DNA from: an uncultured bacterium
GTDB lineage: Bacteria; Cyanobacteriota; Vampirovibrionia; Gastranaerophilales; Gastranaerophilaceae
Direction: 5' to 3'
DNA: 64,000 bases
Assembly (NCBI GenBank): GCA_949286705.1
Contig: CASEDF010000008.1
Coordinates: 1-64,000 of the forward strand
In this document: positions 5,192-53,867 of the stretch, in pieces
Layout of the letters: each line of letters opens with the position of its first letter
Position numbering within the stretch: the stretch's first letter is position 1
Notes under the pieces: model-generated
The model's input: only the letters and a program-made list of their open reading frames with translations
Told to the model about the DNA's origin: nothing
Databases searched by the model: none
Translations under genes and position numbers: made by a program

Positions 5192-5223
5192 AAACAATGA
5201 AAAATAGAAAGTTTAAGGATGTC

Positions 5224-5232
5224 GGGGGGGGG
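5224..5232. repeat. Homopolymeric tract of nine Gs
   Basis: Nine consecutive Gs exactly 27 bases after an ATG with a strong ribosome binding site. An identical tract at the same distance from its ATG occurs at 53017-53025. Such tracts are classic slipped-strand phase-variation sites. Confidence 0.85.
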
Positions 5233-5281
5233 CGACTCTCCTAAGTAGACAGGGCAATGGTTTTGACGGTATATTTTGGGG

Positions 5282-5320
5282 AAAGATACTAAGATACTAT
5301 GATACTAAGGCAGTAAGAAG
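5282..5320 (+). repeat. 39-base direct repeat, leader copy 1
   Basis: A 39-base stretch (contains KILRYYDTKAVR in the shifted frame) identical to 53075-53113. The intervening DNA between it and the G tract differs in sequence but has the same length in both loci. Confidence 0.9.
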
Positions 5321-5459
5321 TAACAGAAATGTAGGTCGGTATTACTATGCCGACAGAAAAGTTTACCGTCGGGTTAGTAAACCCGACCTACAACATGTCA
5401 TCCTGAACTGCCTGAGGCAGGACAACACTCTGAACATTGGTGGAACTTACCATGTCATC

Positions 5460-6281
5460 ATGAACTTGTTTCAGGATCTCATTAGAATAAGATCACGGAA
5501 CACCTGCCGGCTTCGCCGACGGATGCAGGCTCACGCCACTCACCTCACTCACTTTACTCACGCAAAGCGTGCTGCGTTTACTTTAGCTGAAGTTTTGATA
5601 ACTCTGGGCATAATTGGTGTTGTCGCAGCAATGACGATACCTACATTGATTAGCAGTTATAAGGAAAAACAAACTGTTGTTAAGGTACAAAAGGCATTTT
5701 CGGTTTTTAAAAATGTGTATCAATATACGTTATATGAATATGGTACTCCGGATAAGTGGAATCTTCATATAAGCGCTGAGGATACTCAAAAGTTTTTTGA
5801 TAAGCTGAAACCATATTTACGTTTAACAAAAGAATGTGGATTTAATAACCGTGAGGAGTGTGGTTATACTGATGAGTATTTTATAAATTTTGATGGTTCA
5901 AGTAGTATATCTAATATACATAATGGTTTTACAAAAGTATTTGTGCTAAGTGACGGAACATCAGTGCTATTGTATATTCATCATGCGGACGGACCCAGTG
6001 GAAATCCCGGATGTGCGGAAAATGATAATTATTTTCCGTGTGCTGAAATAGATATAAAAACAGACTCATCAAAAAAACAAATTTATGGAAAAAACGTATT
6101 TAGTTTCCGCCTGGAGCACGATAGGATTGTTCCGTATGGTTCAGGTAAATTTGGTAAAGACATGTCTAAATGTTATGGAGACGGACGATATTGTACCGCT
6201 TGGGTTATTGAAAATAAAAATATGGATTATCTTCACTGTGATGATTTGTCGTGGAATGGCAAGCACAAATGTTCTGATTAA
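5460..6281 (+). CDS. Type IV pilin-like protein, probably phase-variable
   Basis: Shown from the first in-frame ATG, but the frame is open upstream to the G tract. The prepilin signature AAFTLAEVLITLGIIGVV lies about 42-60 residues after this ATG, followed by MTIPTLISSYKEKQ and a globular C-terminal domain with paired cysteines (ECGFNNREECGY, NPGCAEND, DGRYCTAW). Cleavage before the F would discard everything upstream, so either a long leader is made or translation starts nearer the signature, for example at the ATG that begins MQAHATHLTHFTH. No convincing ribosome binding site precedes either internal ATG. The C-terminal domain differs from that of the copies at the window start and at 53 kb. 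Confidence 0.75.
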   Translation: MNLFQDLIRIRSRNTCRLRRRMQAHATHLTHFTHAKRAAFTLAEVLITLGIIGVVAAMTIPTLISSYKEKQTVVKVQKAFSVFKNVYQYTLYEYGTPDKWNLHISAEDTQKFFDKLKPYLRLTKECGFNNREECGYTDEYFINFDGSSSISNIHNGFTKVFVLSDGTSVLLYIHHADGPSGNPGCAENDNYFPCAEIDIKTDSSKKQIYGKNVFSFRLEHDRIVPYGSGKFGKDMSKCYGDGRYCTAWVIENKNMDYLHCDDLSWNGKHKCSD

Positions 6282-52934: not shown

Positions 52935-52963
52935 TTGACCTGATTAGTAAAAATTGTTATAAT
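52935..52963 (+). promoter_or_regulatory. Strong promoter of the second poly-G locus
   Basis: TTGACC (52935-52940), 17 bases, TATAAT (52958-52963). AAGGAG follows at 52977-52982, eight bases before the ATG at 52990. Confidence 0.7.
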
Positions 52964-53016
52964 TACTTTATAAAATAAGGAGAGTGAAAATGGAAGATAT
53001 GACTAATTTGAATCAC

Positions 53017-53025
53017 GGGGGGGGG
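53017..53025. repeat. Homopolymeric tract of nine Gs, second locus
   Basis: Identical in length and placement (27 bases after the ATG) to 5224-5232, followed by the same CGACTCT(T/C)CTAAGTA. Confidence 0.85.
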
Positions 53026-53074
53026 CGACTCTTCTAAGTAATCAGGACAAGGGTTCCGGCAATATTGGTTGTGT

Positions 53075-53113
53075 AAAGATACTAAGATACTATGATACTA
53101 AGGCAGTAAGAAG
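53075..53113 (+). repeat. 39-base direct repeat, leader copy 2
   Basis: Identical to 5282-5320. Confidence 0.9.
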
Positions 53114-53867
53114 AAACATTCGTAATAGTAATGTAGCCCAACATAGTTATGTTCAGGATGAGACAATACCGACACTTGTAAGCAAGATACAGGAAGCCCA
53201 TTTTCATGCAAAATGGAAGGAATGTTATGCAATATTGAATAACGCCCTTAAAATGACGGCAGCGGGAAATTCAAGAATGGTGGTATCGGAGTTAAATAAT
53301 TATTATCCGACACGCGAATTTATAGATGCAATGTTGTCCCATCTTCAAGTAGTGGATACTTGTGCTGCATTGACAAGTTATGATAAAAATCTTTGTGATA
53401 ATTATTCGCATTATAAAGACAGTCAGATAAAATATAAATGGTCAGGGACTGCAAATGCGTATTCAAGATATAAAACATTGTCCGGCGGCGAATTAAATGC
53501 ATATGATTTTAGTAATAAAGCAGCATTATTAAAAAACGGAGCGTCAATATATTTTGGCGGTTTGTGGAGCGGAATAACAATATTAGTAGATGTAAATAAT
53601 TTCAATGGCGGACCGAATATCATTGGAAAAGACGTTTATGCAATAGGTTTAACTCCAAGAGGTAATTATTACAATATTCAATATATAGAAGATTTACAAT
53701 TTTTACCTTACGGTGCTGAAAACACCGCAACTGTATACTACGGCTTTGCCGGATGCGGCGAGAATATAGGCGGCAGCGGTTCTGTTAATGCTTTGTATGC
53801 AGCGCCGGGTGCGGGATGTAGTTATAAATATTTGTATGAAAAGTAATTTTTATGATTTTTGAGTTTT

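Follow-up and report, generated by a model that had tools for sequence, protein, structure and literature searches.

A defective pilin copy and a putatively phase-variable, poly-G-associated family of prepilin-like genes in an uncultured cyanobacterial gut lineage

At 53 kb of the window (the whole stretch of DNA analysed, 64,000 nucleotides, G000:C8:1-64000), a short open frame with a run of nine Gs precedes a pilin-like frame that is out of register and lacks the hydrophobic signal. This raises the question of whether such tracts switch pilin genes in this organism, and of what the 53-kb copy itself is. We addressed both in the genome of the window (G000, Candidatus Gastranaerophilales; 1.85 Mb, 41 contigs) and in its relatives.

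Anatomy and origin of the 53-kb locus

As assembled, with G9, translation from 52990 gives MEDMTNLNHGGGRLF and then meets the OFF stop TAA at 53035-53037 (48-base frame). With G8 the reading is ...GGGDSSK followed by a stop, and with G10 it continues as ...GGGATLLSNQDKG... in a 285-codon frame to 53846; the post-tract motif therefore ends both non-ON registers early, after 15 or 16 codons. Start codon, tract, motif and short frame were all found where a sequence-only reading had placed them, and the identical geometry that it had described for this and another site, locus 1 here, was recovered (Table 1). G or C runs of at least 7 occur only twice in the 64-kb window, both times as G9 and at these two loci; CGACTCTTCTAAGTA has only 2 exact matches in the window, and 3 at up to 2 mismatches, a number reached by 0 of 100 shuffles. 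The near-consensus promoter held in part: the 11/12 match upstream of the locus is present, but the promoter scan as a whole was at chance level (7 found vs 6.3 expected).

Table 1. Features of the 53-kb locus and of the other pilin loci in the window
Feature	Position	Strand	Basis
Sigma-70-like promoter, TTGACC-17-TATAAT, TG before -10 (extended -10)	52935..52963	+	11/12 consensus
Ribosome-binding site AAGGAG	52977..52982	+	sequence
OFF-state stub frame, ATG 52990, 15 codons + TAA (MEDMTNLNHGGGRLF, stop)	52990..53037	+	sequence
Poly-G switch tract, G9 = OFF; ON with G10 or G7	53017..53025	+	sequence
Post-tract motif CGACTCTTCTAAGTA, ATLLS in ON frame	53026..53040	+	sequence
Repetitive leader, open in G10 frame; 39-base repeat at ~53076-53114	53041..53162	+	sequence
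Junction, ~93 nt in-frame deletion of prepilin cleavage and hydrophobic signal	53160..53163	+	alignment
Mature pilin remnant (TIPTLVSKIQEAHFHAKW...), subfamily of window:47-802	53163..53846	+	homologue comparison
Locus 1: ATG 5197, G9 5224-5232, motif 5233-5247, prepilin signal intact at 5577; OFF, one G short; 361 aa if ON	5197..6281	+	
Intact prepilin, same subfamily as 53-kb locus; leader runs off contig start	47..802	+	

The absence of the hydrophobic signal was confirmed by comparison with homologues 76-78% identical, which carry FTLAEVLITLGIIGIVAAM at a position where the locus has an in-frame gap of ~93 nt. The mature part of the protein is 76-78% identical to the prepilins window:47-802 and L096, and no Pfam or NCBIfam match was obtained for the protein (the PF07963/TIGR02532 motif is absent, the signal being deleted). 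As far as sequence comparison goes, it is related to type IV prepilin-like proteins by its mature part only. The 53-kb locus is thus a defective, degenerate member of a large dispersed pilin gene family and is probably non-functional as a pilin: without a signal sequence it is not expected to yield assembled pilin in the ON state either, while it could still act as a sequence donor.

In G009, G010, G011 and G012, murA is preceded by an intact prepilin gene that belongs to another subfamily and carries a poly-G tract of its own; at the murA locus of G011 the tract is G8AG, which corresponds to the ON register, and the prepilin is intact. It is therefore probable that the murA-site pilin of G000 was replaced by a copy of another subfamily, the signal being lost then or in the process. 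We see an even chance that the 53-kb locus, taken alone, is nothing more than a pseudogene, or a chimaera that the assembly made from two pilin copies, and has no bearing on switching. The doubt arises from the loss of the signal and from repeats that confuse the assembly nearby: the leader hardly differs from that of the copy ending contig C1 (L003), and contig C8 starts inside a sister copy. Because of the C1-end leader, a chimaera cannot be excluded. Against this, the gap is in frame, the remainder of the 285-codon frame is open, and G010 shares both flanks, on the grpE side and on the murA side, again with a poly-G prepilin between them. This doubt is confined to the one copy and is no rival to the family-wide explanation given below.

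The start of contig C8 (window:1-50) and the end of C1 (L003) both lie inside near-identical pilin leaders and may join; the assembly is seemingly broken by pilin repeats at these points. A comparison of G011:C7:38271-45508 with the window at 4.3-6.3 kb and 52-54 kb showed that in G011 the upstream flank of locus 1 precedes the murA-adjacent pilin, and the grpE-side flank precedes a pilin 5.5 kb away from it. This arrangement is a rearrangement or a misassembly with its ends at pilin genes.

A dispersed family of tract-bearing prepilin genes

Genome-wide, CGACTCTYCTAAGTA occurs in 9 copies in G000, in addition to many diverged copies, and belongs, as one variant, to a larger class. The exact copies are directly preceded by G9 in 7 cases, by G10A in 1 and by a degenerate G6AGG in 1. 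Occurrence of the motif before unrelated or no coding frames would have spoken against the initial interpretation; tabulation of tract length and downstream gene revealed no such case, with 8 of the 9 copies preceding a prepilin or pilin remnant (4 of these 8 with a broken leader) and the ninth cut by a contig end.

Eight-base runs of G (GGGGGGGG) gave 151 matches in G000, compared with ~3 expected poly-G runs of at least 8 per strand, and prepilin-type N-termini of the form FTLAEVLITLGIIGIVAAMTIP numbered 81. A locus table was built from the stretches around tracts and prepilin N-termini among the matches listed, and among these, 56 tracts of G or C lie just behind a start codon and ahead of a prepilin. 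Leaders are broken at 7 of the 56 loci; at the other 49, the path from start to signal is open at exactly one tract length (mod 3), the other two lengths ending within 42 codons. As assembled, 10 of the 49 are ON and 39 OFF, of which 37 need +1 base and 2 need -1. That both loci of the window are OFF was therefore borne out as the rule across the genome and is not a two-locus coincidence. The frame offset is common to 41 of 48 poly-G loci (p ~1.3e-13), despite a tract-to-signal distance of 29 to 533 nt among intact loci. From start to tract the distance is typically 27 nt, with 37 nt in a second poly-G class and 37-40 nt in a poly-C class, and every copy comes with a ribosome-binding site, start and tract of its own.

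The poly-C class comprises 7 prepilin genes (L054, L059, L071, L081, L083, L103 and L105; tract 37-40 nt after the start, M..KKV..KAVQIVAPP...), with C9 OFF at six loci and C7 ON at one. In the second poly-G leader class (L047, L052, L056, L098, L104 and L121; tract 37-38 nt after the start), AGCTTAACCTCC follows the tract in most members and 3 of 6 are in an open ON register. Leaders of up to ~180 codons (for example L002, L079 and window:5233-5576) are in-frame mosaics of repeated elements (HVILNLFQDL, VPYCLSNLVSSKKAA and partial FTLAE copies) and remain open although dN/dS shows them to be nearly neutral. At L089 and L091, G10 followed by TACCATACTTTAAGCATTAAGAGGC lies ~263 nt before prepilins with a short leader of their own. 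G9 and G10 runs also occur in other long frames, of 725 aa (L117 at 1224) and 349 aa (L120), which are possibly other phase-variable genes.

Regarding the products, the L001 protein matches the prepilin motif (PF07963, 30 bits with a cut-off of 21.2; TIGR02532, 25.1 with a cut-off of 16.3). PDB pilins were matched by sequence over the N-terminal 22-78 residues only. For the mature domain, the predicted fold was weak (mean pLDDT 65), with a long N-terminal helix followed by strands, and a Foldseek search against PDB gave only chance hits. G000 also encodes four PF00437 (PilB/PilT/GspE-type) secretion/pilus ATPases and one PF01478 prepilin peptidase.

Tract variation, selection and the mode of switching

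We compared syntenic switch loci, paired by reciprocal best matches of their upstream flanks (up to 860 nt), among G000 and two sister genomes; these represent sister species, and the comparison is thus not one within a species. The tract differs at 17 of 51 syntenic pairs (9/21, 4/19 and 4/11). In the cleanest case, the L001 locus, the flank is 99% and the mature pilin 100% identical, yet the tract is G10A in one genome and G9 in another, and G10 in the third. Behind the 51 switch pairs, the pilin is the same in 16 (at least 60% identity), different in 28, some of which are diverged alleles near 50%, and undetermined in 7. Rearrangement is an alternative to cassette exchange as an account of these differences. 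Within a single genome tract length ranges from 7 to 11 (G000) or from 9 to 12 (G111).

In six pairs of OFF/OFF orthologues with an amino-acid identity of at least 80%, dN/dS in the mature pilin was 0.13-0.33. Judged by these ratios, the OFF genes are under purifying selection and are not pseudogenes. Their leaders gave 0.6-0.85 where measurable and are often of unequal length with the frame kept open. Such a pattern is expected if the frame is used often enough for selection to act on it and the leader is discarded on cleavage, which is itself inferred. In seven genomes together, a single class is open at 165 loci, of which 28 are ON, 118 need +1 and 19 need -1. The ON share lies below one third (p ~2e-6), which requires the assumption of selection or of a length optimum at G9.

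Based on these findings, we consider it likely, with good confidence, that a large and mostly OFF prepilin-like family undergoes slipped-strand phase variation, with frequent exchange of the downstream pilin. The initial view of the tracts as switches of phase-variable pilins gains support here, in that nearly every such tract precedes a prepilin in a fixed register and lengths vary between loci and orthologues. According to this model, type IV prepilin-like genes (~60 in G000, nearly all with a run of ~9 identical bases near the start) would be switched at a poly-G or, in one class, poly-C tract that lies a few codons into the frame; the start codon is seen to be joined to the prepilin frame at a single tract length (mod 3), the other two stop soon after, and the usual length is observed to be OFF, mostly one base short. 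Replication slippage is inferred to add or remove a base in a minority of cells, although switching within a population has not been demonstrated, so that each cell would display a small random subset of pilins, an inference made without evidence of expression or of assembly into pili. The pilin differences behind syntenic switches are observed; recombination between the repeated leaders is their inferred cause. The slippage model rests on anatomy, register, length variation, range and the selection seen on OFF genes, with no read-level, RNA or protein data. Speaking against it are the tract lengths of this genus, which are more uniform than free drift would leave them, the low share of ON loci and the broken leaders at 7 of the 56 loci in G000. 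An intergenic or promoter element was rejected as the nature of the tract, which lies inside a frame and in one fixed register. Internal re-initiation is not general: in the shortest leaders, L082 and L042, the stretch from tract to signal offers no ATG, GTG or TTG in frame.

Programmed frameshifting or transcriptional slippage on a fixed G9 would produce every pilin at a low constant level with the DNA unchanged. Such a process would fit the near-invariance of G9 in G009 and its dominance in G000 and G011, the fact that OFF is mostly the same step away (+1 needed in 118 of 137 OFF loci) and the persistence of purifying selection on OFF genes. We nevertheless regard it as unlikely in view of the lengths of 9-12 in one genome, offsets of both signs (G111, +1 at 10 and -1 at 6; G173, 5 and 6), tract lengths that differ between orthologues, and loci directly in the ON register, one via the interrupted tract G8AG. 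The uniform G9 in this genus, where all 24 intact loci of G009 are G9 and 23 of them OFF, leaves room for frameshifting on a fixed tract, while length variation with offsets of both signs within G111, G173 and G018 argues against it as a general rule. Highly improbable in our judgement is homopolymer under-calling, by which the true tracts would be one base longer and the genes simply ON. A bias of one fixed sign does not explain the G10-G12 tracts reported elsewhere in the same assemblies, the mode of G10 with ON at G11 in G037, the several G018 and G111 loci that are one G too long, or the poly-C class (C9 OFF, C7 ON), which behaves alike, even though the named genomes are metagenome assemblies and the commonest state is one base short.

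Slipped-strand switching could further be one layer of a two-layer antigenic variation in this non-photosynthetic cyanobacterial gut lineage, in which dozens of fixed switch sites, each with its own start and a tract one base short of ON, are combined with pilin cassettes swapped by recombination via repeated, nearly neutral leaders. We regard the case for and against this extended model as balanced.

Distribution, implications and comparison with known systems

The layout was searched as a ribosome-binding site, a start, 15-40 nt and then at least 8 G in 286 genomes of the order, and was matched in 105, of which 103 are among the 264 genomes of the same family, with up to 84 copies per genome. 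Two isolated matches among the 22 genomes of other families in the order equal the yield of the reversed control, and beyond the order the class sample contained no more than four, each of them single. Occurrence within the family is patchy, with 20 of 41 genera represented, some of them by single matches alone, and genera other than that of G000 differ in tract context and in usual length (G037, mostly G10; G018, G9-G12; G111, G9-G12, mostly G10). Among relatives, the named ones that carry the motif are Candidatus Gastranaerophilales MAGs. A scan of viral contigs for G7 plus the motif gave no match and thus no sign of phage carriage.

If the model is true, a stochastically expressed pilin repertoire takes up dozens of genes (up to ~80) in the ~2-Mb genome of an uncultured gut lineage and would be among the largest single-family homopolymer phasomes known to us. 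The model would also offer a testable account of surface variation, with immune evasion, phage evasion or changed adhesion as possible purposes. Gene callers will split or miss such genes because most are assembled OFF and begin as far as ~190 codons ahead of the signal. In the open literature, we found no relevant paper on Gastranaerophilales or Melainabacteria and phase variation, and only general type IV pilus genes for these groups and pilin. On this provisional basis, pilin switch families across one bacterial family seem not to have been described before.

The poly-G contingency genes of Neisseria and Campylobacter resemble the present loci in their intragenic homopolymer of ~8-12 bases, frame-dependent ON/OFF states and surface-related products. 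The maxima for the Neisseria phasome are 54 and 47 loci per genome, with 36-82 in N. lactamica (PMC5953494). Gene functions are mixed in those organisms, whereas here almost one gene family is concerned and a conserved stop-bearing cassette follows the tract. Mycoplasma gallisepticum vlhA likewise comprises many surface-protein paralogues with one repeat length ON and most copies OFF, GAA12 alone being considered active (PMC6258824). In vlhA, however, a trinucleotide repeat in the promoter switches transcription of lipoproteins, whereas the tract described here is a mononucleotide run that affects the translation frame of prepilins. The opa genes carry a pentamer repeat in the signal-peptide region and encode outer-membrane barrels, unlike the prepilins here. 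They are similar to the present family as dispersed paralogues with stochastic phase variation, ~11 in Neisseria gonorrhoeae (PMC3745409). In Neisseria pilE/pilS, type IV pilin diversity also involves recombination of pilin sequences, and the pilin exchange observed here resembles that system. It consists of an expression locus and silent promoterless cassettes. The family described here does not fit the criterion of silent cassettes without a start, since every copy brings a start and a tract switch of its own.
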